35,641 bases of DNA, taken from the NCBI GenBank assembly GCA_017433375.1, contig JAFRHG010000025.1, positions 1 to 35,641 on the forward strand, read 5' to 3'. Under the pieces are notes generated by a model. The model was given only the letters and a program-made list of their open reading frames with translations. It ran no database searches and was not told the origin of the DNA. Source of the DNA: Bacillota bacterium. GTDB taxonomy: Bacteria > Bacillota > Clostridia > Peptostreptococcales > Anaerovoracaceae. A program made the translations under genes and the position numbers. This document shows positions 139-34,792 of this stretch, piece by piece. Within the stretch, counting starts at the first letter, position 1. Every line of letters begins with the position of its first letter.

Positions 139-582
139 TGTCATAAGTATGATCCTTTCCCTTCGCTTCGGCGGTGGCCGGCCGCCGGAAAGCACGACTC
201 ATGATGCGCATCAACGTTCTTCTGTTATTAACTTTACGCCGCAGATTCCGATTCTCTTTTTCTTTTTTTCCATTGGCGGCACCAGCGATAATGGCCTTAT
301 CCTCTCGAGGTATGCGACTGGAAAATAATGTCAATTTCTGTATGGAGCGAAAAGGGCTCCGAAATTATACAGAACGAAGCGGGCATGGATGGGTTGCCGG
401 TCATGCAAAGGCAATCCCGAAGGCGAGGACGATCCTTGGGGTCCCGGCATCCGGGTATAACAAGAACGATCCGGCCCGCGGGTATAACAAGAGCAACCCC
501 GAAACATCGGGGTTGCTCTGTTGCAGTTGTGTCGTTTGATCAGTCAGCCTTGACTGCTCTGTGTTCGATCAGAGAGGATGTC
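139..582. other. Non-coding stretch with small inverted and direct repeats
   Basis: I see no convincing gene here. Visible are a palindrome TGATGCGCATCA (203-214); a nested hairpin with outer arms TCTGTAT (337-343) and ATACAGA (367-373) and inner arms GGAGC/GCTCC; one AAAGGCAA copy (407-414); and a 13-bp direct repeat GGGTATAACAAGA at 453-465 and 480-492. The outer arms of the nested hairpin are 30 bp apart start to start, the same offset as the half-sites of the arrays at 13034 and 33291. An open frame on the minus strand (77-334) has no good start or binding site and was not called. Confidence 0.5.
491..518 (-). terminator. Probable terminator after the MBG-repeat gene
   Basis: A perfect 12-bp stem (GAGCAACCCCGA, 491-502, with its complement at 507-518) and a 4-base loop lies 65 bp beyond the stop of the minus-strand MBG gene. 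On the minus strand it is followed by TTGTTATA, a modest U-rich tail. The plus side lacks a T run. Confidence 0.7.
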
Positions 583-3500
583 TTACTGGACATTCACCTC
601 GACCGTCTGCCAGATGCCGTTGGCTGCCAGGACGTAGAGTCTGCACCAGCCGGTACCGACGCCCGTGATGGTTCCATCCGGGGTTACGGTTGCGACGGCG
701 GGAACTTCACTCTTGTATCTGATCTTTGAGGTGTGGATACCGTTGACCAGCTTCTTGCCCTTCTTGACCTTCTTTACCTTGGCGCTCAGCTTGAACGTGC
801 CGCCCTTGCTGACCGTTACGTTCGTCGCGGAAGCCTTGATGCTCTTCGGGTTCGTGTACTTGCCGCTCACGTTGCCGGTGCAGAAGTGGCTGAGCTCAGA
901 CTGTGCGATCTGCTTGCCAGAACTGTCCAGAGCTACGACATAGAACTTGTAGAAGTTTCTCTTCTTCAGCTTCTTGATCTTCGTGCTGGTCTTGTTTCCG
1001 CCGACCGTCTTGTAATACTTCGGGGTATAGGTCTTCTTCTTGGTGTTGCAGTGCGCGTAGTAGATATCATACTTCGCCGCACCGGTCACGCCGTTCCAGT
1101 AAAGGGTACCCTTCTTGGAGCCGGCCTTTGCCTTTGCAACCAGTGCGGTAAACTTGTCATTCACCGTCAAGGTGCCGGACTTGTAGTTGATGTCATAGTT
1201 GTCCGCCGACAGCCCGGAAATGTTGATCTTGTACTTGCCAGGCTTGCCGTACTGAGCATACGTGTAGGTATACTTGATGGTGCCGTTCACAACAGGGACT
1301 GTTTCTCCCTCGTTATTCTTATACTTGTCAGGCTTTCCATTAACCATATCCGTGTTGAACGGCGTTTCTCCCAGGTCATACTTCTTTGCATACTCCGGAA
1401 TGGACTTGCCATTCTTCAGGCCAGTGTAGAACACGCCGGCGTTGTTGGGCTTGTCCCCATAAAGGATATACCTGTCAATTGCGGTAACGGTCAGCGGGGC
1501 CTTGGCGATAACCATTTCGTTAAATAACGGACTGGTTCCCTCGCCAATTTTGTAGTTCATGCTTCTGTTCACGTCGCCTTCATAAGAAAGCTTTCCCGCT
1601 TCAAATCCATACGTACCTGCATTGATCGGCGGAATGAGATCCTCACCATCTTCCACCATCAGGTATGCGATGACTGTGCATTCCTGCTGCTTATCCGGCC
1701 CCTGCAGGTTTTCGTCATCCATCTTCACTGAGGGTTCCTGCCAGCATGCATTATACGTCTTCTTCAAGCCGGTCCATACAAGGGCTCCCACCTGATACTG
1801 GTCAATCTTGTGCGTCACTTCCCAATGTGCGACTTTCTTATCTGTGATCGTATTCGTTTCCGGATCCAGCAGGCACAGGGAGTAGTTATAGGGATCGCTG
1901 AGTTCAGCCGTATAGATCTCATAGATTCCCGCATCGATGTATTGTCTGTCGGTATCGATGTCCTCAGGATAACCGGTGTGGTGTCCGTCGTTTTCCCAAT
2001 GCTTCATCGACGTGCAGCCTACCGTAACATCACAGTCAAAGGTCTCGCCTCTGTTGGATGTCTGAAGGTTGGTCACCTCCGCGATTGGCTCCTGCTCCTC
2101 GCCGTTGTAGGTAACTGACATGCTGGGTTTGTCCTCGTCACCCGCAAAGGGGATCTCCGCATCCGGAGCCGCGGAATCGCCCACATACCATCTCAGCTTG
2201 ACGGGCCGCGGCACGATCTCATATTTTGTACCTTTCTGGTCTCTCGTATAGTCGGGATTGCTGAAATTGATGTCCCTGACCGTATAGGTCTCAACCTCTA
2301 CCGCGTTGTTGTCCCCTTCTACAGTGACCTCACAGGTGTCCAAAGTCTTCGTGTCGACGGGAGTTTCCAGTTCTTCCGGAATGATCCCTGCTTTCGGAGT
2401 CTGTTTCTTCCCATTGAACACCAATTTGGGAAGGCCTTCTTCAACCGGAACCAGAATGTATGCTCCATCCTGTACTTCCCCTTTCTCCGGATCAGCTGTA
2501 CCGTTTACAAGTTCTCCATACTTATCATACTTGTACTGATACCATAAGAGTTCGACCTCTTTTGGCTCGATCTTGAACTGATAGGAATACTTGCTCTTCT
2601 TGAGTTTGTAGTTTTTAGCTTGTTTACCGATCAGCCCCGTGGTCGGGGGGTCAACCGTATCATCCCTCTCCACGACGGCATTATATGTGCCGGCATGAAT
2701 AGCGACATCCTTATCCTCATCCTCTACTTTAGAAGTCTTGCTTCCGGTGATCTGAACATCCGGTTCGCAGTCATCTCCGGAGAACACGCCGATGATTTCG
2801 ACCGTTGGCTGATGGATCTCTCCATCGTAGACAAAACTGTTGTCCGCGAACTTGATGCTTACCTCCGCAGGAACGATCTCAAAGGATGTCTTGTCGTAAT
2901 CCGGATTAATCACATAATTGTCACTGGAAAGGGCGGTTGCTTTTGCATAATACACTCCGACATCCTTTGACTCCGCAGGCGTTTCACATGTCGCATCGCT
3001 GAAAGTCTCGATCTGCGTTACGTCACATGAATCTCCCGATACCAAGTCCTCCTGATTTACCGTTGCCTCCGGAGTCTGGACATCTCCGTTATAAGTGAGT
3101 ACACGGGGATCAAAAACTATACGAACCGCCTTCGGGGTAATCTTGAATTCTTTATTCAATGTCCCTTCACTGATAACATAGTTGTCCGCATCTCTGCCGC
3201 TCAGTACTGCCGTCGCCGTATGGGTCCCAACTTCACTCTCTCCTGTTGCAGCGACACTAACCTGATCACCACTCATGACAGCATCGGTCGGAATCGAAAC
3301 GCTTGGCGCCTGCTCCTGTCCGTTATAGGTGAACTCTGTGGTACTCCCCCACTGTACGTTGATAGTTCTCGGGGTAATGGAGAAATCCGTCCAGACACGC
3401 CATCCGCCCCCTTCACCGCGAATACTCACATCCGCATAGGCTTTGTAATCTCCCACTGCCTTCGGCGCGGTTGTGCTGCCATACGAAGTGCCATTTCGGC

Positions 3501-3816
3501 CTTCATAGTAAATCGTTCCAAAACTGATTCCGGTGCGACCACCATAGTTCTTTGTTGCAGCGTGTGTTGAACCATTATAGACAATGTCATCCACACTCAA
3601 GCCGATATTAAAACCTGACCAATACTCACACTCACTTGTCCAGCATTCCATGTATACAGACTGAGCACTATCGGTCGTCACATACCTCGGACAATCACTT
3701 GAGTTGTGATCTGGCGTATGGCTGATGGGATCTGCAGCATACGCCATACCCGCCGTGGCTGCCACCATGGCCAGCGCCATCATCAAGATGACCAGCAGCC
3801 GTTTTCTAACTTTCAT
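583..3816 (-). CDS. Secreted multi-MBG-domain surface protein
   Basis: A 1077-residue exported protein. Residues 1-28 form a signal peptide (MKVRKR, then a hydrophobic run ending AYAA). The body repeats an MBG/Ig-like module about seven times, each marked by YNG-x-x-Q-x-P or close variants (YNGQEQAPS, YNGDVQTPE, YDGEIHQPT, FNGKKQTPK, YNGEEQEPI) followed by a beta strand ending in KITPK or EIVPR. The last 200 residues are Lys-rich: a fibronectin-III-like part (VTGAAKYDIYY) and a bacterial Ig-like domain (VATVTPDGTITGVGTG). There is no LPXTG motif or SLH domain, so the anchor is unclear. Such proteins are usually adhesins or matrix proteins; that role is inferred. The start is set by GGAGGAGG just upstream. 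It is transcribed alone, away from the kinase at 4077, and carries a structured leader. Confidence 0.9.
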   Translation of the reverse strand: MKVRKRLLVILMMALAMVAATAGMAYAADPISHTPDHNSSDCPRYVTTDSAQSVYMECWTSECEYWSGFNIGLSVDDIVYNGSTHAATKNYGGRTGISFGTIYYEGRNGTSYGSTTAPKAVGDYKAYADVSIRGEGGGWRVWTDFSITPRTINVQWGSTTEFTYNGQEQAPSVSIPTDAVMSGDQVSVAATGESEVGTHTATAVLSGRDADNYVISEGTLNKEFKITPKAVRIVFDPRVLTYNGDVQTPEATVNQEDLVSGDSCDVTQIETFSDATCETPAESKDVGVYYAKATALSSDNYVINPDYDKTSFEIVPAEVSIKFADNSFVYDGEIHQPTVEIIGVFSGDDCEPDVQITGSKTSKVEDEDKDVAIHAGTYNAVVERDDTVDPPTTGLIGKQAKNYKLKKSKYSYQFKIEPKEVELLWYQYKYDKYGELVNGTADPEKGEVQDGAYILVPVEEGLPKLVFNGKKQTPKAGIIPEELETPVDTKTLDTCEVTVEGDNNAVEVETYTVRDINFSNPDYTRDQKGTKYEIVPRPVKLRWYVGDSAAPDAEIPFAGDEDKPSMSVTYNGEEQEPIAEVTNLQTSNRGETFDCDVTVGCTSMKHWENDGHHTGYPEDIDTDRQYIDAGIYEIYTAELSDPYNYSLCLLDPETNTITDKKVAHWEVTHKIDQYQVGALVWTGLKKTYNACWQEPSVKMDDENLQGPDKQQECTVIAYLMVEDGEDLIPPINAGTYGFEAGKLSYEGDVNRSMNYKIGEGTSPLFNEMVIAKAPLTVTAIDRYILYGDKPNNAGVFYTGLKNGKSIPEYAKKYDLGETPFNTDMVNGKPDKYKNNEGETVPVVNGTIKYTYTYAQYGKPGKYKINISGLSADNYDINYKSGTLTVNDKFTALVAKAKAGSKKGTLYWNGVTGAAKYDIYYAHCNTKKKTYTPKYYKTVGGNKTSTKIKKLKKRNFYKFYVVALDSSGKQIAQSELSHFCTGNVSGKYTNPKSIKASATNVTVSKGGTFKLSAKVKKVKKGKKLVNGIHTSKIRYKSEVPAVATVTPDGTITGVGTGWCRLYVLAANGIWQTVEVNVQ

Positions 3817-3915: not shown

Positions 3916-3968
3916 ACATGTCTATTTTACTCTTTTCAGAGGTGTAATAGAAGAATAGAAATATGGGC

Positions 3969-3983: not shown

Positions 3984-4044
3984 ACCAATATATTGACAGG
4001 GTTTCCATTTAATAACAATTTTGCCCTCGAGGGTTGCCTTTGTA

Positions 4045-4053: not shown

Positions 4054-4076
4054 GCCGGTACGGAGGACTTGCAGCG

Positions 4077-5402
4077 ATGATCATGCCTGTAGTTGACATC
4101 ATTAATCTGATAACCGCATCCAGCGGGCTCATGCTGGCCCTGATCTGCCTGAGCATGTCCGTCAGGACGCGTATGATGGACTCCTGGGGGCGCAGGTTCT
4201 TTACCATTTTCTTTTCCCTGCTGTTCCTGTATGTCGCCTTCGACCTGGCGGAACTGATCAGTACGGATCTGATGGGCAAAGGCAATCCCGCCCTCTCTCA
4301 GCTGTTCCTGTTCCTCAGCTCCATGTTCTCCTCCATGCTGATGCCCATGATCATGGTGCTGATGCTGCATTTCACGGGGGAGCCGCTGCGGGGGAACCGG
4401 ACCTTCTATGCTGTCCTCGGGGTATGGATCGTCTACACGGTTCTCCTCATCGTGACCCAGTTCACCGACTTCATCTACTACTTCACCGAGGACAACGAGT
4501 ATCACCGGGGACCCTATTATCCCCTGCTGCTGATTCCGCCTGTCGTCATCATGATCATCATCCTGATCGCCCTGCTGCGCAGGCGCAGCCAGCTCACCGG
4601 ACGGCAGTTCAGTTCTTTCCTTGTATATATTCTCCTGCCCCTCGCCTGCATGCTGATCCAGATGCGGTTTTACGGGGTCCTGATCATCGTGCTGGGCTCC
4701 TGTCTGGCGGCCCTGTTCATGTTCGCCCAGATCCTCACGGAGCAGGCGGAGAGGATCGCCCGCCAGCGGGAGGAAAACGCGAAACTCCTGGCCGATAACC
4801 GACTGCTGCAGATGCGGCCCCACTTCATCTATAACACCCTGATGAGCATCTACTACCTGTGCGCAAAGGATTCCGAAAAGGCGCAGCAGGTGATCCTGGA
4901 CTTTTCCAGCTATCTGCGAAAGAACTTTACCGCCATTTCCAATACGGGCACCATTCCCTTCACGGAAGAGCTGGAACATACCCGGGCCTATCTGGTGGTG
5001 GAGGAAGCCCGCTTCGAGGATCTCCTTTCCGTGCGGTTCTCCACGCCCCACGTCAACTTCCGCATGCCGGCCCTCACCCTGCAGCCGGTGGTGGAAAACG
5101 CCGTGAAGTACGGCCTGGATCCCGAGGCGGATCCCCTTCTGATCGAGGTGAAGACCCAGGGCACGGACAAAGAGCATGTGGTGATCGTGGAGGACAACGG
5201 GACGGGGTTCGCTGACGGTACGGCCGGACCGGATGCCGACGAAGCCGGCGGACTCACCGACAGCCTGCCGGCGGACGCCGGATTCCACTTCGCCCTGGAC
5301 AACATCCGGCAGCGCCTGGATCAGGTCTGCGGCGGAAGCCTGGACATCGCTCCCCGGGAGGGCGGCGGCACCGTCGTTACCATTCATATTCCGAAAGAAT
5401 AA
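4077..5402 (+). CDS. LytS/YehU-type membrane sensor histidine kinase
   Basis: A 441-residue inner-membrane kinase. Residues 1-225 hold about six hydrophobic segments; a short charged helix (EQAERIARQREENAKLL) follows. The His_kinase (PF06580-type) phospho-acceptor is His249 in LQMRPHFIYNTL, typical of the LytS/YehU/AgrC-like group. The ATPase part has the N-box (LQPVVENAVKYG), the G1 box (VEDNGTGF) and a final FALDNIRQRL plus GGTVVTIHIP. GGAGG at 4062-4066 precedes ATG 4077; a second in-frame ATG at 4083 is possible. No response regulator gene is next to it, so the partner (normally LytTR-type) must be elsewhere. The ligand is unknown. Confidence 0.9.
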   Translation: MIMPVVDIINLITASSGLMLALICLSMSVRTRMMDSWGRRFFTIFFSLLFLYVAFDLAELISTDLMGKGNPALSQLFLFLSSMFSSMLMPMIMVLMLHFTGEPLRGNRTFYAVLGVWIVYTVLLIVTQFTDFIYYFTEDNEYHRGPYYPLLLIPPVVIMIIILIALLRRRSQLTGRQFSSFLVYILLPLACMLIQMRFYGVLIIVLGSCLAALFMFAQILTEQAERIARQREENAKLLADNRLLQMRPHFIYNTLMSIYYLCAKDSEKAQQVILDFSSYLRKNFTAISNTGTIPFTEELEHTRAYLVVEEARFEDLLSVRFSTPHVNFRMPALTLQPVVENAVKYGLDPEADPLLIEVKTQGTDKEHVVIVEDNGTGFADGTAGPDADEAGGLTDSLPADAGFHFALDNIRQRLDQVCGGSLDIAPREGGGTVVTIHIPKE

Positions 5403-5432: not shown

Positions 5433-6431
5433 GTTGCCTTTGCCCGATTTCTGGCGCCTGCGCTCTTCCTGTTTCTCCAGATGGCGGATCAGTTCGTTGC
5501 GGCGGGCGCAGACTTCCTCCGGCGCGAGGACGTGGTACTCCTCGATGTCCGGGATGAGCTGGATGTAGATGCTGTCGAACTCGGCCTGCCCGGCCTCGGT
5601 GATTTCCCTGTGCACCTCCTGCATGCGGCTCAGGTCGATGGTGTTGCCCGCGGGCAGGAAGAAAACATCCGCCCAGACTTTGCGGCCGGTCTTGACCAGA
5701 TCCAGATAGGTCAGCCGGCAGCCTTCCCGGTTCAGGATCCCCTCGCAGACCGCGCAGACCTTTTCCTTGATCTCCTCGTCGGGGGCGAAGAGCACCAGGC
5801 TCCGCAGGGAATCAAAGATCATTTCCACCGGCTCCTTGATCAGGATGACGGCCAGGATGATGGCGATTCCCGGATCCACGTAGGGGCAGATGAAGGCCAG
5901 GGGCGTGCGCAAAAGCAGCAGGTTCAGCAGGAAGGCGCATCCGACGCCCAGGGTACTCAGGGCATCCAGCTTCCAGATGAACAGTTCCGCCTTGATGGAA
6001 GGCGAGGAGTACCTCTTCTGGAAGCGGCTGAGCGTCAGGTAGATCAGAACGCACCCTGCCGAGACCGCCAGCTCAAAGACGGCCACCATGGAGGCGTCCA
6101 CCTCGTTCCCGCCGGAGAGGATCGTCTTCACGCAGTTGATCACCAGGACCACATCGACGCCCAGAAGGATGCTGTACTTGATCAGCACGAAAAGGGACTC
6201 CACCTGAGCGAATCCGAAGGGCCGTTTCTCCGTGGTCGGCCTGTACAGCAGCGGCACCAGAACGATGAAGGGTCCGATCATCACCAGATCCGCGATATCG
6301 TAGACGCAGTCCATGAGCACCGCCTTGGATCCGGTGTAGATGGCAAAGAAAACCTCCGCCAGAAGGAAGGCGATGCTTCCGGCCAGCGAGAGGTTAAGGA
6401 TTCGTTTTTCCGTTTTCAGATTGTTATCCAT
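5418..6431 (-). CDS. Cation diffusion facilitator (CDF) family metal transporter
   Basis: A 337-residue membrane protein with six hydrophobic segments in the CDF arrangement and a C-terminal cytoplasmic domain. The family metal site normally uses Asp/His pairs in TM2 and TM5; here TM2 reads MDCVYDIAD and TM5 reads KLDALSTLG, so the acidic residues are present. Family members export divalent metals (Zn, Fe, Mn, Co) in exchange for protons; the metal cannot be told from this sequence. The start at 6431 follows GAGG at a 7-base distance; an upstream in-frame start would run into the macro-domain gene and lacks homology. It is the last gene of the ADP-ribose operon, 64 bp after the macro gene. 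Confidence 0.88.
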   Translation of the reverse strand: MDNNLKTEKRILNLSLAGSIAFLLAEVFFAIYTGSKAVLMDCVYDIADLVMIGPFIVLVPLLYRPTTEKRPFGFAQVESLFVLIKYSILLGVDVVLVINCVKTILSGGNEVDASMVAVFELAVSAGCVLIYLTLSRFQKRYSSPSIKAELFIWKLDALSTLGVGCAFLLNLLLLRTPLAFICPYVDPGIAIILAVILIKEPVEMIFDSLRSLVLFAPDEEIKEKVCAVCEGILNREGCRLTYLDLVKTGRKVWADVFFLPAGNTIDLSRMQEVHREITEAGQAEFDSIYIQLIPDIEEYHVLAPEEVCARRNELIRHLEKQEERRRQKSGKGNNTPE

Positions 6432-7570: not shown

Positions 7571-8377
7571 TCACATCTCCTTCGCCGCGAACTCCCGCAG
7601 GACCTCTCTCATGTCCCCTGGGAGCCGCGCTTCGCACTCGGCCTTCAGCTCTTCCGGCACGCCGTAGAAAGCCTCTCCTATGGAGCCGGCCATGGCACCG
7701 ATGGTGTCCGCGTCTCCGCCCAGGGACACGGCCGTCCGCACCACGTCCTCGAAATCCTTTCCTTCTCCAAAGGCAATGATGGCTTCGGGCACGCTCCCCT
7801 GGCAGGTCACATCGAATTGGTATCCCGGCCGGATCTCATCGCAGGTCCGGTCCAGATCGTAGCCGAATTCATCGGCGACGTATTCGAGTATGGCTTCCTT
7901 GGTGCTGCCGGTCCTGGCCAGGTAGATGGCGCTGGCGACAGACTCAGCGCCCTTGATCCCTTCCGGATGGTTGTGGGTCACCTCCGCCGACCAGCGGGCA
8001 AGGGTCCGGCAGTGGTCCAGATCCTCCCCCATCCATCCGGCCGCCGATACGCGCATCGCCGATCCGTTGCCGAGGCTGTTGTAGGGATCTCTTCCCCCGA
8101 ACATCAGCCACTTGTAAAACTTGCCGCCGTATCCCGCTCTGGGATACTGCTGTCCCCACTTGTGCATGGCGTTCACGAGCAGGTCCTTCACCTCCCCTTC
8201 ATCGTCCAGGACGAAGGTTGCCTTTGCTCTCAGCAGAGCGTCCGCCACGGCGATGGTCAAGACGCTGTCGTCGGTGAACCTGGACTCGGGAAGGAACAGC
8301 TCGAATTCCTTTGTCTTGCCCTCCCGGTCAAATTCGTATGGACTGCCGATGATGTCTCCTAAAATTGCTCCGTACAT
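7571..8377 (-). CDS. ADP-ribosylglycohydrolase family protein
   Basis: A 268-residue DraG/ARH-type enzyme, expected to remove ADP-ribose from modified protein side chains with two Mg ions. Both metal motifs are visible: FTDDSVLT near residue 35 and SLGGDADTIGAMAGSIG near residue 220, together with MYGAILGDIIGSPYEF at the N-terminus. The length fits the family. ATG 8377 is preceded by GGGAG at nine bases; an ATG-less extension to 8410 is less likely. It heads an operon with the macro-domain gene (25 bp) and a CDF transporter. The target ADP-ribosyltransferase is not in the window, so it may serve immunity, detoxification or housekeeping; the sequence does not decide. Confidence 0.88.
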   Translation of the reverse strand: MYGAILGDIIGSPYEFDREGKTKEFELFLPESRFTDDSVLTIAVADALLRAKATFVLDDEGEVKDLLVNAMHKWGQQYPRAGYGGKFYKWLMFGGRDPYNSLGNGSAMRVSAAGWMGEDLDHCRTLARWSAEVTHNHPEGIKGAESVASAIYLARTGSTKEAILEYVADEFGYDLDRTCDEIRPGYQFDVTCQGSVPEAIIAFGEGKDFEDVVRTAVSLGGDADTIGAMAGSIGEAFYGVPEELKAECEARLPGDMREVLREFAAKEM

Positions 8378-8518: not shown

Positions 8519-9799
8519 CTATTTGACCATCATGCGGATGATCTCCGCGTTGGTGTCGTGCATGGCCACCCGGCCCAGATGACCGTAGTTGCGGATGGTG
8601 TTCTCCACGCCCTTGAGCACCAGGCCTTCGCCGCTGATGAACTCCTGCCCTTCCTGATACATCTCGTATCCCATCAGGCCGGACTCCACGGCGATAGCGA
8701 TCTTGGCCGCGCAGGACGCCTTGGCCCCGTCGCAGACGATGCCCGAGGAAATGGCCAGGGTGTTGACGATGGTGTGGGAGATGGTTTTCCGGTCGCCGCC
8801 TTTCAGAAAGGCAATCCCGGCTGCGGCACCGGCGCCGGCGATGACCACGCCGCAGTATGCCGACAGTCTTCCGATGCCGGTCTTGGCGTGCAGGGTCACC
8901 AGATTGGAAAGGAGAAGTCCCCGGTACAGCTCTTCCCGGGAAAGGCCCATGTCCTCCGCGTAGACGATGACGGGAAGGGATGTGGTCAGGCCCTGGTTGC
9001 CGCTGCCCGAGTTGATCACCACAGGGAGTTCGCAGCCGCCCATCCGGGCATCGGATCCCGCGGCGGCGATTGCCTTTGCACGGACCCTGACGCTGTCCGG
9101 GTTGGACCGGAGGATCACCTTGCCGATGTTCGCCCCGAAGTCTTTGGCGAGGCCCTCTTCGGCGATGGCTTTGTTGCAGGCGATCTGGTTCTCCAGGATG
9201 TCCTCCAAGTCGGACAGGTCGCAGGTTTTCGCAAAGTCATAAACGTCGGCGATGTTCAGCAGGTCATAGTCGGGCATGTCCTCATCGGATGCCTCCGGAT
9301 CGGCGCTCCCCTTTTCGTAGATGAGGCTGCCGTCCTTCTCCATGGAAATGATGTTGGTGTGCTCGTCCTGGATGTGGACCTTCGCGGAATGCCCCTCGGC
9401 GTAGACGGTGATCTCCACGTCCAGAAGGCGCTCGGAATCCAAAGGTTCCACCCTGATGTCCGCGCTGTTCAGATAGGGTTCGATCCGGTCCTTCACCTCC
9501 CGGGAGATGTCGGCGATGACCAGCAGGTCCGCGTCCTCATCTCCGCCCAGAATGCCGGCGGCAGCAGCGGCCTGAATGCCCCGGCGCCCGTCGGTGTTGG
9601 GCACCACCACGCTCTTGACGTTCTTGATGATGTTGCCGCTGGCCCGGATCTCCACCCGGTCCGGGACCGTGCCCAGAATGCTCCGCGCTTTGGCCGCGCA
9701 GAAAGCGATGGCGATGGGCTCGGTGCAGCCCATGGCGCAGATCAGTTCCCGCCGAAGGATCTCGACGTAGGTCTGGTAGGTTTTGCTCTCCCGGTTCAT
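8519..9799 (-). CDS. cyuA: UPF0597-family L-cysteine desulfidase-like protein
   Basis: A 426-residue protein of the CyuA/YhaM (UPF0597, serine dehydratase alpha-like) family. Members use a [4Fe-4S] cluster to split L-cysteine into pyruvate, ammonia and sulfide. Cluster-type cysteines are visible: ICAMGCTEP (Cys21, Cys25), AYCGVVIAGAG, and GIVCDGAKASCAAKIA near residue 360. The INSGSGNQG motif and the small-residue-rich helices also fit. AGGAGA sits six bases before ATG 9799. It lies 18 bp after the AhcY-like gene, so the sulfur amino acid released there (homocysteine, or cysteine made from it) may be its substrate; this is inference. The gene symbol is by family resemblance only. Confidence 0.85.
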   Translation of the reverse strand: MNRESKTYQTYVEILRRELICAMGCTEPIAIAFCAAKARSILGTVPDRVEIRASGNIIKNVKSVVVPNTDGRRGIQAAAAAGILGGDEDADLLVIADISREVKDRIEPYLNSADIRVEPLDSERLLDVEITVYAEGHSAKVHIQDEHTNIISMEKDGSLIYEKGSADPEASDEDMPDYDLLNIADVYDFAKTCDLSDLEDILENQIACNKAIAEEGLAKDFGANIGKVILRSNPDSVRVRAKAIAAAGSDARMGGCELPVVINSGSGNQGLTTSLPVIVYAEDMGLSREELYRGLLLSNLVTLHAKTGIGRLSAYCGVVIAGAGAAAGIAFLKGGDRKTISHTIVNTLAISSGIVCDGAKASCAAKIAIAVESGLMGYEMYQEGQEFISGEGLVLKGVENTIRNYGHLGRVAMHDTNAEIIRMMVK

Positions 9800-9817: not shown

Positions 9818-11062
9818 TCAGAAGTTCCAGCTGTCGATGTAGGCCTGCTGCTCTTCGGTCAGATGGTCGATGGAGGTGCCCAGGAAGCGGAGCTTTCTCT
9901 CCGCGACCTCCCGGTCGATCTCCTCGGGAACCACGTTGAGCATGGGCAGTTTCTCGTCCTTATGGTCCGCCAGGTATTTGGCGCAGAGGGCCTGGATGGA
10001 AAAGCTCATGTCCATGATCTCCGCCGGGTGGCCGTCTCCCGCGGCCAGATTGACCAGCCGGCCTTCCGCCAGCACATTGACCGAGCGGCCGCCCGGAAGA
10101 TAATATCCCATGATGCTGTCCCGGCGGGGGACCGCTTTCTCCGCGATCTTCTCCAGTCCTTCCATATCGATTTCCACGTTGAAGTGTCCGGCGTTGCAGA
10201 CGATGGCTCCATCCTTCATGGAGAGAATGTGCTCCGGGGTAATCACGTCCCGGCATCCGGTGACGGTCACGAAGAAGTCGCCGATCTTCGCCGCCTCCTC
10301 CATGGGCAGCACTTCAAAGCCGTCCATGATGGCCTCGATGGCTTTGATGGGATCGATCTCCGTCACGAATACCCGGGCGCCCAGGCCCTTCGCCCGCATG
10401 GCGACGCCTTTGCCGCACCAGCCGTAGCCGGCCACGACCACCTTCTTGCCCGCCACGATGAGGTTCGTCGTCCGGTTGATGCCGTTCCAGACGGACTGGC
10501 CCGTGCCGTAACGGTTGTCAAAAAGGAATTTGCACTGGGCGTTGTTGACCATCATCATGGGGATCTGGAGCTGCCCCGCGGCATCCATTGCCTTTAACCG
10601 GTGGATGCCCGTGGTCGTCTCCTCGCAGCCGCCGATCACGCCGGGAATCAGATCCCGGTAGACGGTGTGCATCAGTGTGATCAGATCGCCGCCGTCGTCG
10701 ACGATGATCTGGGGACCCTTCTCCAGCACGCTGGACAGGTGCCGGTTGTATTCCTCATCGGACTCTCCCCGCCAGGCGAAGACATTCACTCCCCGCGCCG
10801 CCAGGGCGGCCGCCACATCGTCCTGTGTGGACAGGGGATTGCAGCCCGTGGCGAAGACCTCCGCGCCGCCGTCGTGGACGACCGTGGCCAGATAAGCGGT
10901 CTTGGCCTCCATGTGGACGGACAGGGCCACTTTCAGTCCCTGGAAGGGTTTCGTTTTTTTGAAGTCCTCGTGGATGCTCCGCAGGACCGGCATATGATCC
11001 GTGACCCACTGGATCTTCCGTTCTCCCGATGGGGCAAGATTCTTGTCACGTACTTCGCTCAT
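9818..11062 (-). CDS. ahcY: S-adenosylhomocysteine hydrolase-like enzyme, possibly S-inosylhomocysteine hydrolase
   Basis: A 414-residue NAD-dependent hydrolase. The core motifs are present: IIVDDGGDL, CEETTTGIHRL, NNAQCKFLFDNRYG, the Rossmann loop VVVAGYGWCGKGVA, and CNAGHFNVEIDM. It has the short archaeal/Thermotoga-type C-terminus (SIDHLTEEQ to the end) and lacks the KPxxYRY tail of the eukaryotic type. The adenine-site motif, usually HMTVET, reads HMEAKT (residues 50-55). Together with a SAH deaminase gene directly upstream, this suggests that the true substrate may be S-inosylhomocysteine. AAAGGA lies eight bases before ATG 11062; the gap to the deaminase gene is 54 bp. The reaction releases homocysteine plus the nucleoside and recycles the product of methylation. 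Confidence 0.88.
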   Translation of the reverse strand: MSEVRDKNLAPSGERKIQWVTDHMPVLRSIHEDFKKTKPFQGLKVALSVHMEAKTAYLATVVHDGGAEVFATGCNPLSTQDDVAAALAARGVNVFAWRGESDEEYNRHLSSVLEKGPQIIVDDGGDLITLMHTVYRDLIPGVIGGCEETTTGIHRLKAMDAAGQLQIPMMMVNNAQCKFLFDNRYGTGQSVWNGINRTTNLIVAGKKVVVAGYGWCGKGVAMRAKGLGARVFVTEIDPIKAIEAIMDGFEVLPMEEAAKIGDFFVTVTGCRDVITPEHILSMKDGAIVCNAGHFNVEIDMEGLEKIAEKAVPRRDSIMGYYLPGGRSVNVLAEGRLVNLAAGDGHPAEIMDMSFSIQALCAKYLADHKDEKLPMLNVVPEEIDREVAERKLRFLGTSIDHLTEEQQAYIDSWNF

Positions 11063-11116: not shown

Positions 11117-12394
11117 CTAAAACCCGCTGACCGCCCGGGCGACCTCCCCGTTCACCCGCTCCTCGTCGATGGTCATCAGCCGGCGGTCCCTCATGAGGAT
11201 CTCCCCGTTGACGATGGTGTCCGTTACCTCAAAGCCCGTCGACGAATAGGCGAGGGCCGCCTTCATGCTGTGCTTCGGCTGGAAGTTGGGGGCCTCCTCA
11301 TCCAGCAGGATCAGATCGGCCAGCCGTCCCTTTTCGACGCGGCCGCCTTCATCGGCCAGGCCCGCCGCCCGATATCCGCCGTCCAGAGCAACCTTCAGGG
11401 TCTCCTCCGCCGTCAGGGCCAGGCAGTCCAGGTTCGCGCCCTTCTGGGTCAGGGTCAAAAGCCCCATCTCCCGGAACATGTTCAGCGCGTTGTTGCTGGA
11501 CGCGCCGTCGGTGCCCAGGCCGACGCAGATCCCTTCCTTCAGCATCCGGGCGACCGGCGCGAATCCGTTGCCCAGCTTCATGTTGCTGGCCGGGTTCGTC
11601 ACCACGGTCACATTCGGATCGCAAAGGCTCTCCATGTCCTCATCCGTCAGGTGGACGCAGTGGGCCAGGATGACCGGCACGTGGAAAAGGCCCAGGCTTT
11701 TAACGTAGGCCACCGGGCTCATCCCGTGCTCCTTCATGCAGCTGTCATATTCAAATTGGGTCTCCGCCAGATGCATATTGATGGGGAGTTGCCTTTCCGC
11801 GGCGAGCTCGCCCACATACCGGAGAAAGTCCTCGCCGCAGGTGTAGATGGCGTGGGGCCCCAGCCCGAACCGGACGTGGGCCTTCGGCTCGCTCTTCGCG
11901 TACTCGATTTCCTCGAAAGCCTCCCGCAGCCTGCGCTGTCCGCCCTCATCCCTGCGGTCTTCGCCGACCACTCCCCGGGTGATGAACGCCCGGATTCCGC
12001 TGTCCGCGCAGGCCCGGACGCACGTGTTGGGGAACATGTGCATGTCGATGAAGCAGGTGGTGCCGGTCCGGATCATTTCCGTGATCGAAAGCATGGTCCC
12101 CCAGTAGGCCTGCTCCGGCGTCATCCTGCCCTCCAGGGGATCGATCTTCCCGAACAGCCACTCCTCAAAAGGCAGGTCGTCGGCATAGTTCCGGAAGACG
12201 GACATGTAGGCGTGGGTGTGGGCGTTGACCAGCCCGGGCATGCACAGCCTGTGCGACCCGTCGATGGTCACCTCCGGCGTGAAGCCCTCCGGCTTCTCAT
12301 CGATGCCGGCGATGCGGCTGCCGGATATATATACATCCCTCCGCACTCCCCTTTCGTCGTCGAGGAGACGGACGTTGCTGATCAGTATGTTCAT
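11117..12394 (-). CDS. mtaD: MtaD-like amidohydrolase (SAH / methylthioadenosine deaminase family)
   Basis: A 425-residue amidohydrolase-superfamily protein. Metal and catalytic motifs in order: PGLVNAHTHAYMS, NMHLAETQFEYD, VILAHCVHL, and GTDGASSNNALNMFREM, ending with the usual composite beta-sandwich piece (GRLADLILLDEEAPNF). The group deaminates SAH, methylthioadenosine or 5'-deoxyadenosine. In methanogens and some thermophiles, deamination of SAH comes before hydrolysis of S-inosylhomocysteine. The start is ATG 12394, with AGGAGA at seven bases; a longer frame to 12445 would begin upstream of the promoter. The neighbouring AhcY-like gene supports a joint SAH-recycling role. Confidence 0.87.
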   Translation of the reverse strand: MNILISNVRLLDDERGVRRDVYISGSRIAGIDEKPEGFTPEVTIDGSHRLCMPGLVNAHTHAYMSVFRNYADDLPFEEWLFGKIDPLEGRMTPEQAYWGTMLSITEMIRTGTTCFIDMHMFPNTCVRACADSGIRAFITRGVVGEDRRDEGGQRRLREAFEEIEYAKSEPKAHVRFGLGPHAIYTCGEDFLRYVGELAAERQLPINMHLAETQFEYDSCMKEHGMSPVAYVKSLGLFHVPVILAHCVHLTDEDMESLCDPNVTVVTNPASNMKLGNGFAPVARMLKEGICVGLGTDGASSNNALNMFREMGLLTLTQKGANLDCLALTAEETLKVALDGGYRAAGLADEGGRVEKGRLADLILLDEEAPNFQPKHSMKAALAYSSTGFEVTDTIVNGEILMRDRRLMTIDEERVNGEVARAVSGF

Positions 12395-13033: not shown

Positions 13034-13286
13034 GGTGTATAACATGCCTTGTTGGAATTATTCATTCACCAATACCGCTTTTTCAGCCGTTAAAAATTAT
13101 AGTTATTTCCATTTTGTGAATAAAAACGTCCGCAATTTGAATCCATACACCATTTTCTCAAAAAGTGGTGTATCGCCCCGTGGGAATTGCCTTTTTATTC
13201 ACAGAGGCAGCCGAAAAGGGCATTTTCGGATGGGGAATCCGGCCGACTGGTGTATTTGAAGCAACAGGGGCGGCCAGATATTCACC
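13034..13286. repeat. Eight-half-site nested inverted array, copy 1
   Basis: Half-sites alternate in direction: GGTGTAT 13034, ATTCACC 13064, TGTGAAT 13115, ATACACC 13145, GGTGTAT 13167, ATTCACA 13197, GGTGTAT 13249, ATTCACC 13280. Start-to-start offsets are 30, 51, 30, 22, 30, 52, 31, symmetric about the centre. Sites 3 and 6 extend to an 11-bp perfect inverted repeat (13116-13126 with 13192-13202), and sites 4 and 5 form a central hairpin. The 23-24 bp between paired half-sites differ from pair to pair. A TTGCCTTT copy (13187) lies inside the third pair. The array lies between a GNAT gene and the cupin gene, upstream of the latter. Copy 2 is at 33291. Confidence 0.9.
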
Positions 13287-13622: not shown

Positions 13623-14144
13623 TCAGAGCTTTTTCTCGATGAGCACCAGGTCCACTCCGGGGATTCCGTTGAACACCGTGGGCACGGTGCCGATCTCCCG
13701 GTAGCCGTGCTTCCGGTAAAAGTCCCTGGCCGCTTCATTCCGGGCGTTGGTGTCCAGGCGCAGGTACGGGCATCCCTGTTCCCGGGCGTAGTTTTCGTAG
13801 AATTTTAGAAAGGCAACGCCAAGGCCCCGCTCCCCGGTCTTTCGGGAGACGATCAGGGTATGCAGCACCATGACTTCCCGGTCCGGGGCCGGATACTTCC
13901 AGTTGCCTTTGGCATAGACGTCGACCTGGATCTGGTTGATGATTCCCGTGCCCACGATCCGGCCGTCCTTATCCTCCTGCACGAACATGTCGCCCCGGGC
14001 CACCGCGCTCTCCGCGGTCCCGCGCACCGGGTACACGTCCCGCAGCCAGCCGGTCGTGGTCTCGCCGGCTTCCTCCCGGGAATGGATCTCCTCGTAGAGA
14101 TCCGCGATGGCGGGGATGTCCGCCGGGGTTGCCTTTCTGATCAT
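13623..14144 (-). CDS. GNAT family N-acetyltransferase
   Basis: A 173-residue single GNAT domain: MIRKATPADIPAIADLYEEI at the N-terminus, VMVLHTLIVSRKTGERGLGV (acetyl-CoA loop R-x-x-G-x-G region), then LRLDTNARNEAARDFYRKHG near the end. The acceptor is unknown. The start is uncertain. ATG 14144 has no close binding site, whereas an in-frame TTG at 14153 has GGGAGG nine bases upstream, and that GGGAGG lies inside a hairpin (14162-14202). A TTG start would add three residues. It is followed by a second, smaller GNAT gene. Confidence 0.85.
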   Translation of the reverse strand: MIRKATPADIPAIADLYEEIHSREEAGETTTGWLRDVYPVRGTAESAVARGDMFVQEDKDGRIVGTGIINQIQVDVYAKGNWKYPAPDREVMVLHTLIVSRKTGERGLGVAFLKFYENYAREQGCPYLRLDTNARNEAARDFYRKHGYREIGTVPTVFNGIPGVDLVLIEKKL

Positions 14145-16444: not shown

Positions 16445-16514
16445 ATTGTACCCCGTGCAAAGGCAACAGTAAAACGGTGATATCTTTTGTGTTAACTATA
16501 GTTTTCTTATATCC
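16445..16514 (-). promoter_or_regulatory. Promoter with 47-bp conserved upstream element, copy A
   Basis: The minus strand reads TTTACT (16468-16473), a 17-bp spacer and TACAAT (16445-16450). The spacer contains a TTGCCTTT copy. The block 16468-16514, covering the -35 and 40 bp upstream of it, matches 21719-21765 at 42 of 47 positions, whereas the -10 regions differ. That pattern points to a regulator site rather than shared ancestry of the genes. Confidence 0.8.
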
Positions 16515-18588: not shown

Positions 18589-18609
18589 GGGTTGCCTTTC
18601 CTTGCCTCG

Positions 18610-19682: not shown

Positions 19683-20552
19683 ATGGAAAAAATCAACGCC
19701 GAAGTTTTCATCACTGTCGCGGAACTGGGCAGCTTCAAGAAAGCCGCCGACAAGCTGGGCTACACCCAGGCCGGCATCAGCTACATCATCAATTCCATGG
19801 AGGAGCAGGCCGGCTTCCGCCTCTTCGAGCGGGAGTTCGGCGGCGTCCGCCTGACCCAGGAGGGCCGCACTCTCCTCCCCGCCATGCAGCGGCTGCACCG
19901 GGACGAGCAGATCGTGGGGGAACAGGTGGACCAGATCAAGGGTCTGGAGCGGGGACGCATCCGGGTGCTGTCCATCAACACCGTCATCGTCTGCTACCTT
20001 CCCGACATCCTCAGCGAATTCAAGGAACAGTACCCCGGGATCGAGATCGAGCTGTCGGAGTGCGACTCCCATGAAAAGGCAACCCGGCTCATCCTGGACA
20101 GCGAGGCGGACTGCACCTTCACCCAGCTGGTCGCCTCCGATAAGATCCAGCTCATTCCCCTCTGCCGCCAGGAGGACATGATCGTGGTATCAAAAAAGCA
20201 TCCTCTGGCGAGGCGGAAGGTCTTCCCCATCAGCGAGCTGGGCGACCACCCCTACATCGGATGCACGGAGGCGCTGGATCCCTACAACTATGACCTGGCC
20301 CGGAAGTTCGACGTCAGCCTGAACCAGATCATCGAGATCAACAACGACTACGGTTGCTTTTCCATGATCAACAAGGGCCTGGGCTTCGGCATCTACCCGA
20401 AGATCATGGTCGAGAAGAGCACCTTCCCGGTCAAAGGCATTCCCTTCGACGTGAACTCCTTCACGGACATTTCCCTGGGTTTCCGTTCTTACGATTCCCT
20501 GTCCCTGGCGGCCCGCGCCTTTGTGGACTTCGTCAAGGGCTGGGAGTTCTGA
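19683..20552 (+). CDS. LysR-family transcriptional regulator
   Basis: A 289-residue LTTR. The N-terminal winged helix-turn-helix is clear (VFITVAELGSFKKAADKLGY, then AGISYIINSMEEQAGFRLFE, LTQEGRTLLP), followed by a periplasmic-binding-protein-like effector domain (GRIRVLSINTVIVCYLPDIL, MIVVSKKHPLARR). GGAGGG precedes ATG 19683 by about seven bases. It is divergent from the acyltransferase/acyl-CoA synthetase operon and shares its promoter region, so control of that operon is likely by the usual LTTR arrangement. The promoters at 16445 and 21698, which share the -35 and spacing, might belong to the same regulon; that is inference. Confidence 0.92.
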   Translation: MEKINAEVFITVAELGSFKKAADKLGYTQAGISYIINSMEEQAGFRLFEREFGGVRLTQEGRTLLPAMQRLHRDEQIVGEQVDQIKGLERGRIRVLSINTVIVCYLPDILSEFKEQYPGIEIELSECDSHEKATRLILDSEADCTFTQLVASDKIQLIPLCRQEDMIVVSKKHPLARRKVFPISELGDHPYIGCTEALDPYNYDLARKFDVSLNQIIEINNDYGCFSMINKGLGFGIYPKIMVEKSTFPVKGIPFDVNSFTDISLGFRSYDSLSLAARAFVDFVKGWEF

Positions 20553-20617: not shown

Positions 20618-21616
20618 TTATCCCTGGGCGGGGCCGGGCGCCCGCTCTTTCGCGGCGCTGACCGGCAGGTTGGCGACGATGATGGCGGCGAACATGACCA
20701 CGCATCCCACCGTTTCCCGCAGGGACATCATTTCCCCCAGGAACATCATGCCGGCGAGCAGGGCGAACACGGACTCCAGGCAGAGGATCATGGAGGCGAT
20801 GGTCGGCTCGGTATCCTTCTGGCCCAGGACCTGGAAGGTAAAGGCAATCCCGCAGGAAACGATCCCCGCGTAGAGGATGGTGAACCAGGAGGCAAAGACG
20901 TTGCCCGCCGTGGGCAGGGCGAATCCCAGAGCCGGATCCACGAAGGGCATGAGGATCAGCGACACGCCGCCCGCCACGAAGAACTGGATGCAGGACAGCT
21001 TCACGCCATCCACCTTCGGGGAAAAGTGGTCGATGATCAGGATGTGCACGGCGAAGCAGATCGCGCAGACGAAAATGATGATGTCCCCCACGTTGACCTG
21101 GCCGAATCCGCTTGCGGGAATGCAGAGCAGATAGAGCCCCACAGCCGAGGCGGCTACGCAGCACCACATGACCGGGGAAACCCGCTTCCCCAAAAGGAGT
21201 CCCATCAGCGGAACGATGACCACGTAGAGGGCGGTGATGAATCCCGTGTGGGAAACGGAGGTGTAGTACAGACCGATCTGCTGCACATTGCCGGCTGCGC
21301 ACAGGGCCAGCCCGCAGCAGATACCGCCGATGATCAGGGTTCTGTTGGCGGGGTCCTGCTGCTGCTGGTCCTTCTGCTGGTCCTGAGGCTGCGTCTTCGT
21401 CTTCTGCTGGTCCTTCTGCCGTTTCCTCTGCTGACTCCGGCCGGTGATCAGGATCACCGGGACCAGGGAAAGGGCTCCCACCAGAGTCCGGATCCCGTTG
21501 AAGGCGATGGGCCCGAGCAGGTCCATGCCCGCCTTCTGGGCAACGAAAGCGGTTCCCCATATCATGGCCGTCATCATCAGCAGGATATTGCCTTTCATTC
21601 TGTTCTTGTTCTTCAT
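20618..21616 (-). CDS. EamA (DMT superfamily) transporter
   Basis: A 332-residue membrane protein with about ten hydrophobic segments in two EamA repeats: MKGNILLMMTAMIWGTAFVA at the start, VSHTGFITALYVVIVPLMGL, and the second repeat ending FLGEMMSLRETVGCVVMFAA. Members export amino acids, metabolites or drugs; the substrate is not evident. The loop after TM2 carries an unusual Gln/Lys-rich insert (about residues 62-92, QQKDQQ-type), encoded by an imperfect CTGCTGGTCC repeat near 21357-21425. AAAGGAGG precedes ATG 21616 by five bases. Its promoter carries the 47-bp element shared with the small gene at 16196. Confidence 0.9.
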   Translation of the reverse strand: MKNKNRMKGNILLMMTAMIWGTAFVAQKAGMDLLGPIAFNGIRTLVGALSLVPVILITGRSQQRKRQKDQQKTKTQPQDQQKDQQQQDPANRTLIIGGICCGLALCAAGNVQQIGLYYTSVSHTGFITALYVVIVPLMGLLLGKRVSPVMWCCVAASAVGLYLLCIPASGFGQVNVGDIIIFVCAICFAVHILIIDHFSPKVDGVKLSCIQFFVAGGVSLILMPFVDPALGFALPTAGNVFASWFTILYAGIVSCGIAFTFQVLGQKDTEPTIASMILCLESVFALLAGMMFLGEMMSLRETVGCVVMFAAIIVANLPVSAAKERAPGPAQG

Positions 21617-21765: not shown

Positions 21766-22103
21766 CCTACGCTCTAACCCATGGATAAATCGCACGCAGC
21801 CAGACGCCCCAGCCGAGCCTCGCGCATTGGCTCGACCGGTCGTCAGGATGTGCACGACTTTCCCACCGGCCGGGGCCGGCTTCTGGGTTCATTATGGTCT
21901 CTGTTCGCTCGTTCTGATTCCAATATATTTCCATATTCAGTCAGATGGGAATATATGGGAGCATTTAAGTGCGGGTGGGGAAATACAGAATTGCCTTTGC
22001 CGCAGGCCGCCCAGTACAGAAAAAAAGGACTGACGCATTATTCCCATAATGCATCAGCCTCTATGGTTGTGATTGCAGCCTGAGCGGGGTTGCCTTTGCC
22101 AGC
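21766..22103. other. Intergenic region rich in inverted repeats
   Basis: I see no gene. A long imperfect dyad (21920-21934 with 21945-21959, 13 of 15 pairs) has an AT-rich stem and a 10-base loop. Near-identical arms CATTATGG (21890-21897) and CCATAATG (22044-22051) flank it. A compact hairpin with 11-base arms (22031-22041 and 22046-22056, one G-T type mismatch) lies after the stop of the oxidase-like gene and may act as its terminator. Two TTGCCTTT copies (21991, 22090) are present. The nested layout recalls the arrays at 13034 and 33291, but the spacings do not match. Confidence 0.5.
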
Positions 22104-33114: not shown

Positions 33115-33161
33115 GACTCCCGTCCTTTCCCTCCGGATCTGTACCGCTTCAGTACTGTATG

Positions 33162-33170
33162 AGTATACCA
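33162..33170 (-). promoter_or_regulatory. Extended -10 promoter of the subtilase operon
   Basis: The minus strand reads TGGTATACT, an extended -10, 48 bp before the start at 33114. A small dyad CCGCAAATGCGG lies just upstream (about 33190-33201), then an AAAGGCAA copy (33216), then the half-site array. Confidence 0.6.
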
Positions 33171-33290
33171 TATTCCGGCCGCAGATGTCCCGCAAATGCG
33201 GATTTCCAACTGGAGTTGCCTTTGCATAAACGATTGCCGGGACAACATCCCGACGGAAGAGCGACAAACTATTTATCAGCCGGAAGGACT

Positions 33291-33597: not shown

Positions 33598-34284
33598 CTA
33601 CTCGAATTTGATCACGCCAAAATACTCGGGGCAGTGGAAGTTGGGCGACGGCAGATCGATGGGCGCCCACGAGAGATAGTGCTTGTGCACGGTCTTGTTG
33701 CCGCACTTGTAGAAGTTGGCCGCCAGTTCCCCCTGGAACTGATAGTCCGGGTAGAAGAGCTGGAAGAATTTCAGCGGGATCTTGTAGTAAACTTCCCACC
33801 CGTCGGCGGTTCTGTCGGTATGAATGTCGAAGTACTCCTTCGCGTCGTCCCGGACGATATCGATCCGGTCCGTCTTTTCCGGGCCGAACTGGGCGCAAAG
33901 GCAACCATTGGGGTTCATCTCAAAGTTGAAGTAGTTCGGCGAATCGGGAACCTGGAAGAAGAACTCCAGGCAGCTGTCCTCATATATGGGCGAAAGGGGT
34001 TCGGTGTTCACGGCGCGGATGTCTTTCTCGGTCGCGCTGAGATGAACGAAGAGAGCCTCGTCGGAATAGCACAGCTGTCCCTGGCCGCGGATCCCGTAAT
34101 CCTCCGTCCACAGGACGTCGTCGATCTTCAGGACGGGCACATCGCTCCAGTCCGGCTCGCCGTCGGTCTTGACGACGGTATAGGTCTCCTTTTCCGCCTG
34201 GGGCTGATCAGCCTCTTCCTTCTGACAGGACGTTGTCACCAGCAGCAGGGGCAGGGTGAGCAAAACAAACCATAGTCTTTTCAT
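33598..34284 (-). CDS. Lipoprotein with CBM9-like carbohydrate-binding domain
   Basis: A 228-residue exported lipoprotein. The N-terminus (MKRLWFVLLTLPLLLVTTSC) ends in a lipobox with the acceptor Cys20. The mature part resembles the family-9 carbohydrate-binding module / DOMON-like fold: SDEALFVHLSATEKDIRA, YEDSCLEFFFQVPDSPNYFN, FEMNPNGCLCAQFGP, and GWEVYYKIPLKFFQLF. It probably binds a sugar or related ligand at the cell surface; no enzyme is attached. GGAGG precedes ATG 34284 by nine bases. Its stop lies 55 bp from copy 2 of the half-site array. A rare TGC-CTT-TGC codon run (Cys-Leu-Cys) comes from an embedded TTGCCTTT copy. Confidence 0.85.
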   Translation of the reverse strand: MKRLWFVLLTLPLLLVTTSCQKEEADQPQAEKETYTVVKTDGEPDWSDVPVLKIDDVLWTEDYGIRGQGQLCYSDEALFVHLSATEKDIRAVNTEPLSPIYEDSCLEFFFQVPDSPNYFNFEMNPNGCLCAQFGPEKTDRIDIVRDDAKEYFDIHTDRTADGWEVYYKIPLKFFQLFYPDYQFQGELAANFYKCGNKTVHKHYLSWAPIDLPSPNFHCPEYFGVIKFE

Positions 34285-34327
34285 GACACTACTCCTCCTT
34301 ATTCTGTTCCATGATGGCCGGCTCCGG

Positions 34328-34792
34328 TTACTGTTCCCCGCCGATGAGTTCTTCGTACAGCCGGCGGACGGTCTTTCCGGAGCGGGGGTCCACCGTGTCC
34401 GGGGCGATCTCGCAGATGGGACCCAGCACAAAGGTCCGCTGTGCGAAGTCGGCGTGGGGAATGTGCAGGTCTTCCTCATCGATGATCTCATCCCCGTAGA
34501 AGATGATGTCCAGATCGATGGTCCGGGGGCCCCAGTGGATCAGCCGCACCCGGCCCAGTTCCGCCTCGATGCCCTGCAGCACCTCCAGCAGCCGGCGGGG
34601 GCTCAGCTCCGTGTCCAGGAGCGCCGCTCCGTTGAGGAAGTTGTCCTGCTCCGTATACCCGTAGGGCTCCGTCTCGATGACTTCGGACACAGCCAGGATC
34701 CGTCCGACCCGCTCTTCCATCATCTTCAGCGCGTCCTCGATGGTCTCCTGTCTCTGTCCCATATTTGATCCAAAGGCAACGATTGCTTTCAT
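34328..34792 (-). CDS. folK: 2-amino-4-hydroxy-6-hydroxymethyldihydropteridine pyrophosphokinase
   Basis: A 154-residue HPPK, which transfers pyrophosphate from ATP to the pterin in folate synthesis. Family motifs: IVAFGSNMGQR at the N-terminus, ETEPYGYTEQDNFLNGAALL, GRVRLIHWGPRTIDLDIIFY (the R-W-G-P-R-x-I-D-L-D-I signature), and LHIPHADFAQRTFVLGPICE. GGAGG precedes ATG 34792 by eight bases; the frame stays open to 34837 inside the upstream gene but has no better start. It follows the phosphorylase gene by four bases and was probably cotranscribed with it. Other folate genes are not in the window. Confidence 0.95.
   Translation of the reverse strand: MKAIVAFGSNMGQRQETIEDALKMMEERVGRILAVSEVIETEPYGYTEQDNFLNGAALLDTELSPRRLLEVLQGIEAELGRVRLIHWGPRTIDLDIIFYGDEIIDEEDLHIPHADFAQRTFVLGPICEIAPDTVDPRSGKTVRRLYEELIGGEQ

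Follow-up and report, generated by a model that had tools for sequence, protein, structure and literature searches.

The octamer AAAGGCAA is scattered at high density and in both orientations through a 35,641-base stretch of a Bacillota genome (the window, meaning the whole of the DNA that was analyzed) and through the assembly to which this stretch belongs (G000), and related genomes carry dialects of the same word around a common core, GCAAARGC. The octamer is probably, although by no means certainly, this genome's dialect of a DNA tag that resembles uptake sequences and is upheld by biased uptake and recombination. This reading is favored because the word is asymmetric, about 10 bases long, genome-wide and strand-neutral in G000, and because it has a firm core and dialects that fit the phylogeny. 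The systems known to us that share these traits are the DNA uptake sequence (DUS) of Neisseriaceae and the uptake signal sequence (USS) of Pasteurellaceae (PMC3630211, PMC1626085, PMC7811141).

A dispersed octamer in the window

AAAGGCAA is present in 33 exact copies, 14 on the forward strand and 19 on the reverse strand, the first at 407-414 and the last at 34772-34779 (Table 1). This confirms the original prediction, made from the window alone, of a dispersed octamer with the same count in each orientation. Dinucleotide shuffling gave a mean expectation of 0.78 copies, and 33 copies were reached in 0 of 100 shuffles; the strong excess over composition that had been claimed is upheld, with 0.78 replacing the earlier figure of 0.6. 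In a Markov test, the octamer was the most over-represented 8-mer of the window. According to gene calls made by a simple script, on which the sense, antisense, and intergenic labels depend, 15 copies lie sense and 10 antisense within genes, and 8 are intergenic, one fewer than the nine first proposed. All three codon phases are used in both orientations, as had been stated, and two of the three unusual words pointed out earlier, ERQLP in the deaminase and TTA-AAG-GCA in AhcY, agree with the phases found.

The bases on either side of the octamer are also biased. Upstream, G was found at position -2 in 20 of the 33 copies and C at -1 in 22 of 33; downstream, C or T was found at +1 in 30 of 33 and C at +2 in 17 of 33. 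No AT-rich flanking repeats were seen within 15 bases of the window copies, and no RNA families were found in the window.

The word across the genome

The G000 assembly comprises 1,953,975 bases in 38 contigs and is 89% complete. It contains 1132 copies of AAAGGCAA, 568 on one strand and 564 on the other (about 580 per Mb), versus 134 copies (73 and 61) of the reversed word, which served as a control. Outside the window, the word therefore remains far above background, at an assembly average of about one copy per 1.7 kb, compared with about one per 1.1 kb in the window.

Close analyses covered 394 kb of G000 (the window and 20 stretches), about a fifth of the genome, where 236 copies were found against 11.4 expected. 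One hundred of these are sense, 89 antisense, and 44 intergenic, with 3 at gene edges, in a sample of which 13% of bases are non-coding; the three codon phases are all occupied in either orientation. Taking the coding strand as a proxy for replication direction, the copies do not follow it, a behavior that had been raised as the signature of a different kind of element. Positional trend was assessed by local spacing in these 394 kb of the 1.95 Mb, and spacing was close to random (variance/mean, 0.89; 195 bins of 2 kb). Terminator use of the word was considered and rejected, as inverted pairs of AAAGGCAA within 60 bp numbered 3 in the 394 kb versus 4.3 by chance.

Flanking preferences over the 236 copies were G at -2 in 62%, C at -1 in 67%, and C or T at +1 in 79%. 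The flanks are thus biased, as predicted, but GCAAAGGCAAY holds as a soft consensus and not as a firm one. Among single changes to GCAAAGGCAAC within the octamer, A for the first G was by far the commonest (16 copies of GCAAAAGCAAC versus 0.1 expected), followed by two changes with 3 copies each, and GCAAARGCAAY was therefore adopted as the working form. The word is non-palindromic, reading AAAGGCAA on one strand and TTGCCTTT on the other.

Dialects in relatives

Forty-nine genomes of the genus, mostly incomplete drafts, were compared. Carriers were scored from counts of three 9-base words, counts of GCAAARGC, and Markov expectations, with labels assigned by us, giving 33 carriers, 15 non-carriers, and one weak genome (G031). 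Fetched sequence amounted to roughly 3 to 100 kb for most relatives; G039, G042, and G043, for which none was fetched, were scored from whole-genome counts only.

In carriers, the dispersed word has the common core GCAAARGC, and its outer bases vary. AAAGGCAA itself reaches its highest densities in G000, G024, and G034 (about 580, 580, and 375 per Mb, respectively); other genomes, such as G006 (343 versus 47), have it at lower density but above the reversed control. De novo word counts in 40-kb samples of ten relatives recovered the core in seven (G003, G006, G007, G017, G020, G026, and G029) and did not recover it in G021, G022, and G036; larger samples agree with these results.

Whole-genome counts of the three 9-base words in all 49 genomes were used to describe the dialects (reversed control in parentheses). 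CAAAGGCAA alone is borne by G000, 789 (38); G024, 435 (21); and G034, 308 (11). The other two words are at control level or below in G000, with 21 (23) copies of CAAAGGCTG and 29 (54) of CAAAGGCAG. Mainly CAAAGGCTG is found in G044, 1143 (28); G010, 783 (17); G009, 457 (7); and G001, 415 (7). Three of these have some CAAAGGCAG (G001, 153; G010, 125; G009, 76), and G044 has only 37 copies of CAAAGGCAA and 49 of CAAAGGCAG. A third set bears CAAAGGCAA and CAAAGGCAG together, such as G007 (403 and 337) and G006 (289 and 360). G045 bears two words, CAAAGGCTG at 479 (14) and CAAAGGCAG at 607 (44). In G040 and G048, with little sequence for either, the excess over reversed words is 2- to 6-fold at low density.

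Within the family but outside the genus, GCAAARGC exceeds its reversed control 2.5- to 4.8-fold in G051, G055, and G057. High ratios at low density are also seen in further families of the order (for example, G092, 400 versus 14 in 2.8 Mb), with the reservation that the reversed word contains CG and is therefore a poor control in AT-rich genomes. The word is likely restricted to the genus. In fetched sequence of the two other genomes with the window's dialect, G024 and G034, 13 copies were sense and 17 antisense.

Phylogeny and conservation of sites

In a ComEC tree of 31 genus members, the 7 non-carriers and the 24 carriers are split by one branch (97/91). Presence or absence of the word requires one change on this tree (31 rows) and one change on a TadA tree (22 rows); as both trees are unrooted, this may be read as one gain or as one loss. 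The three CAAAGGCAA genomes cluster on both trees (with G024, 85/73 and 81/70), and G000 pairs with G034 on each (100/100 and 100/99). The CTG genomes G001 and G010 fall with the CAAAGGCAA genomes in one larger ComEC clade, and the dialect labels need nine changes in all on the ComEC tree.

Conservation of individual sites was measured by counting every genome pair once, with the expectation taken from flanks; for groups with more than one scoring word, a site counted as kept if any of those words was present, which raises the observed numbers somewhat. Words were in place in 26 of 66 cases in bare-core genomes (7.6 expected), an excess that stems partly from either-of-two-words scoring, in 3 of 4 in CTG genomes (0.5 expected), and in 12 of 47 in CAAAGGCAA/G genomes (7.4 expected). 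Non-carriers showed no excess (4 of 25; 3.5 expected).

Uptake machinery

Machinery was searched for in 37 genus genomes (27 carriers, 9 non-carriers, and the weak G031). Of the 27 carriers, 24 have ComEC, as do 7 of the 9 non-carriers; G031 is without it, and G018 (97% complete) is without both ComEC and the word. G031 has a Tad-size ATPase, assigned from length and score, and so do 23 of the 27 carriers and 8 of the 9 non-carriers. HHH_3 domains occur in 35 of the 37 genomes; in the two exceptions, G000 and G034, neither ComEA nor the HHH_3 protein of about 750 amino acids present in many relatives was seen. ComEA was rejected as a gene separating the two groups, since ComEA proteins read as ordinary in carriers and non-carriers.

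G000 has a divergent competence-pilus (com-pilus) operon (G000:C7, L123:4150-7913) that encodes T2SSF, four small proteins including a DUF4860 protein, and an ATPase. None of the four small proteins gave an N_methyl match, and the ATPase occurs in the genus as two sequence types (68-76% and 51-55% identity). This operon was rejected as the sole reader of the word: its marker does not track the word and is absent, together with the ATPase, from the word-bearing sisters G020 and G014.

A type IVa pilus cluster (G000:C3 10763-18990, L111) contains pilin, PilB, PilT, PilC, PilD, and PilM, with two small proteins in the places of PilN and PilO, and a second pilin-like gene set lies beside a surface-protein-like open reading frame (ORF) of about 4190 amino acids (G000:C3 32677-36633, L112). 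A PilB-size ATPase was found in only 3 of the 37 genomes (G000, G034, and G008), and G002 gave one N_methyl hit. The G000 pilus region has motif gaps of 6.5 and 10.8 kb. The type IVa pilus was rejected as the reader for this rarity and these gaps, which also suggest that the region is perhaps a late arrival.

The Tad pilus is a possible reader of the word, because a Tad ATPase mutant of Liberibacter crescens is described, in the available part of the report, as taking up less extracellular double-stranded DNA (PMC8513845). Two candidates from the Tad locus were rejected. A gene beside the Tad operon (cluster 10), present in 12 carriers and in 0 of the 6 non-carriers read, is by eye an amino-acid/sodium symporter and was assigned to the ordinary neighborhood. 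A TadE-like pilin (L227 571-1329 in G000) and its Tad-locus orthologues have a C-terminal half with two YHxxxC...CxxC repeats that, by eye, recall zinc modules; Pfam gave only a sub-threshold TadE match and a PDB search one chance-level hit (E 1.1). As a receptor, this pilin was set aside, being found in carriers and non-carriers alike.

A proposed uptake-sequence-like tag and its alternatives

If the word is an uptake-like tag, some component of the transformation machinery that binds DNA would prefer a word of about 10 bases with the core GCAAARGC. The putative binder may belong to a com pilus or a Tad pilus, or may act with ComEA. Uptake and recombination would thereby be more frequent for DNA from the same or a near species, and any copy of the word created by mutation would be favored in exchange, leading to a genome-wide build-up by molecular drive. 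Shifts in binding preference would then shift the outer bases genome-wide and yield the dialects, CAAAGGCAA here and CAAAGGCTG, CAAAGGCAG, and others elsewhere.

The original prediction had likened the octamer to uptake sequences on density, non-palindromic form, and strand neutrality. These properties, together with the dialects and the occurrence of ComEC in most carriers, speak for that comparison; the machinery has yielded no gene that tracks the word, and the com-pilus marker does not track it either.

Several results weigh against an uptake-like tag. Inverted pairs show no excess, and the strand neutrality of G000 gives way in relatives to a sense lean: 27 sense versus 18 antisense in CTG genomes, 100 versus 48 in CAAAGGCAA/G genomes, and 187 versus 143 in bare-core genomes (fetched sequence). 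This lean may reflect codon fit, the commonest sense phase reading Lys-Ala. In the window's own dialect, words in place are only weakly above expectation (7 of 17 versus 4.5; z, 1.4), and when all pairs of carriers are pooled, 282 of 1170 aligned CAAAGGC sites are identical (24%) versus 128 of 736 (17%) for the reversed control, a small gap. Because of the sense lean and these weak conservation figures, our confidence is slightly lowered. Furthermore, ComEC, ComEA, and Tad also occur in non-carriers; none of the uptake genes that were read distinguishes the two groups, and the Tad and ComEA loci examined gave no receptor candidate that does so. G000 (89% complete) and G034 yielded no HHH_3 domain (ComEA), which could be due to assembly gaps or to loss. 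Finally, 20 of the 33 carriers have the com-pilus marker DUF4860, as do 10 of the 15 non-carriers, and two carriers, G029 (98% complete) and G020 (96%), are without both this marker and the ATPase.

Alternatively, the word may be a methylation-linked repeat, a non-palindromic counterpart of the highly iterated palindrome HIP1, made and kept by an orphan methyltransferase together with repair, with dialects that follow changes in specificity. HIP words are reported at 1000-2000 per Mb, give way to alternate words in certain lineages, and are associated with methyltransferases, according to part of one study (PMC4390886). The density of AAAGGCAA in G000, about 580 per Mb, and its soft outer and firmer inner bases are consistent with such an origin. 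However, HIPs are palindromes, and this word lacks that symmetry. A graded preference over about 10 positions is also long for a methyltransferase site, and we regard this explanation as improbable.

We place at the same low level the proposal that the word is the binding site of a chromosome-organizing or other DNA-handling protein whose preference has drifted between species. The genome-wide, strand-neutral, and non-clustered scatter would suit such a site, but we know of no Bacillota nucleoid protein with a word of about 10 bases, this density, and dialects.

It is very unlikely that AddAB or RecBCD reads the word as a Chi-like recombination site. Chi words are over-represented and vary between species, as this word does, and the sense lean in some relatives would fit. 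Chi, however, works in one orientation and tends to lie along the direction of replication, while G000 shows no polarity, either by strand (568/564) or by gene orientation (100/89), and 19 of the 33 window copies run with the dominant gene strand.

The word is hardly a by-product of codon or peptide use or a mobile short repeat: AAA-GGC-AA can encode Lys-Gly-Lys, and beyond the family a modest excess over the reversed word is seen in many genomes of the order, but in G000 89 of 236 copies are antisense, 44 are intergenic at 13% non-coding sequence, and all phases are used, and related non-carrier genomes are without the words, which largely refutes such an origin as the main cause.

Among these explanations, an uptake-like tag is the one that we retain. 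An extended version of it, in which a Clostridia clade evolved self-recognition for transformation, with dialects, independently of Neisseriaceae and Pasteurellaceae and with a Tad-pilus machine as the reader, is tentative and rather unlikely to hold in every part. The Tad pilus is proposed here from the absence of the com pilus in nearly complete carriers and from the occurrence of Tad and ComEC in most of the genus.

In the open-access PMC literature (preprints not covered), we found no such sequence described for Bacillota. In Veillonella parvula, a member of Bacillota, uptake bias was found, and the available part of the report names no sequence (PMC5397411). What is new here is that relatives carry dialects of the word around the core GCAAARGC, resembling the DUS dialects of Neisseriaceae. 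If an uptake-like tag is indeed present, it would be a third, independent case, in Bacillota, and would suggest that self-DNA tagging follows generally from biased uptake. Transformation would also be predicted in a species-rich genus, whose many natural dialects could serve to find the receptor by co-variation.

Copies and neighboring genes in the window

Table 1. Exact copies of AAAGGCAA in the window, located by exact-word search and placed by gene calls.
Positions	Strand	Placement	Host gene or ORF	Remark
407..414	+	intergenic		
1128..1135	-	sense	ORF 583-3816	
4034..4041	-	intergenic		
4278..4285	+	sense	ORF 4077-5402	
5434..5441	-	sense	CDF transporter-like ORF 5418-6539	
7769..7776	+	antisense	ADP-ribosylglycohydrolase-like ORF 7571-8410	
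8218..8225	-	sense	ADP-ribosylglycohydrolase-like ORF 7571-8410	
8807..8814	+	antisense	ORF 8519-9799	
9070..9077	-	sense	ORF 8519-9799	
10588..10595	-	sense	AhcY	
11789..11796	-	sense	amidohydrolase/deaminase	phase 1, E-R-Q-L-P
13187..13194	-	intergenic		
13809..13816	+	antisense	GNAT-like ORF 13623-14189	
13903..13910	-	sense	GNAT-like ORF 13623-14189	
14129..14136	-	sense	GNAT-like ORF 13623-14189	
16459..16466	+	intergenic		
17829..17836	-	sense	acyl-CoA ligase-like ORF 16840-18588	
18418..18425	+	antisense	acyl-CoA ligase-like ORF 16840-18588	
18592..18599	-	intergenic		
20075..20082	+	sense	ORF 19683-20552	
20840..20847	+	antisense	ORF 20618-21616	
21588..21595	-	sense	ORF 20618-21616	
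21991..21998	-	intergenic		
22090..22097	-	intergenic		
22983..22990	-	intergenic		
24996..25003	+	antisense	ORF 23877-25571	
26018..26025	+	antisense	histidine-kinase-like ORF 25595-27484	
29214..29221	-	sense	C69 dipeptidase	
29441..29448	-	sense	ORF 29242-33267	
30560..30567	+	antisense	ORF 29242-33267	
33216..33223	-	sense	ORF 29242-33267	near uncertain start of that ORF
33897..33904	+	antisense	ORF 33598-34491	
34772..34779	+	antisense	ORF 34328-34837	

Apart from the octamer, a macrodomain ADP-ribose hydrolase-like gene adjoins an ADP-ribosylglycohydrolase-like gene at 6496-8410 of the window; both fall short of the curated cut-offs for the NCBIfam models that match them best.

Comparison with known systems

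Chi sites resemble the word described here in being short, over-represented, and different between taxa, and differ from it in that the word has no strand polarity in G000. HIP1 of cyanobacteria (GCGATCGC) is likewise a short genome-wide word, for which some lineages have substituted others; unlike the asymmetric word of G000, HIP is palindromic, denser, and tied to methyltransferases, as described in part of PMC4390886. The USS of Pasteurellaceae (AAGTGCGGT, ACAAGCGGT) is an abundant genomic word with subclade-specific versions and is described as arising by mutation and not by copying; it differs in being an unrelated word, and in its host phylum, and its AT-rich flanking repeats (PMC1626085, in the portion available), of which the window shows none within 15 bases.

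The DUS of Neisseriaceae differs in being an unrelated word outside Bacillota (the phylum to which G000 is assigned by the relatives of its AhcY) and in its receptor, which is ComP in Neisseria and only putative in the carriers studied here. Inverted pairs, common though not essential in the terminators of known systems, are not in excess in G000, and copies are fewer, with 789 of CAAAGGCAA versus 943-5918 DUS 10-mers (PMC3630211, in part). In other respects the likeness is close: the same source describes a non-palindromic word of about 10 bases in many hundreds to thousands of copies, with a common core, species dialects that fit the phylogeny, and motif-less relatives in the wider family. 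G045, with its two words, resembles the two-dialect Simonsiella muelleri of Neisseriaceae (PMC3630211, in part).

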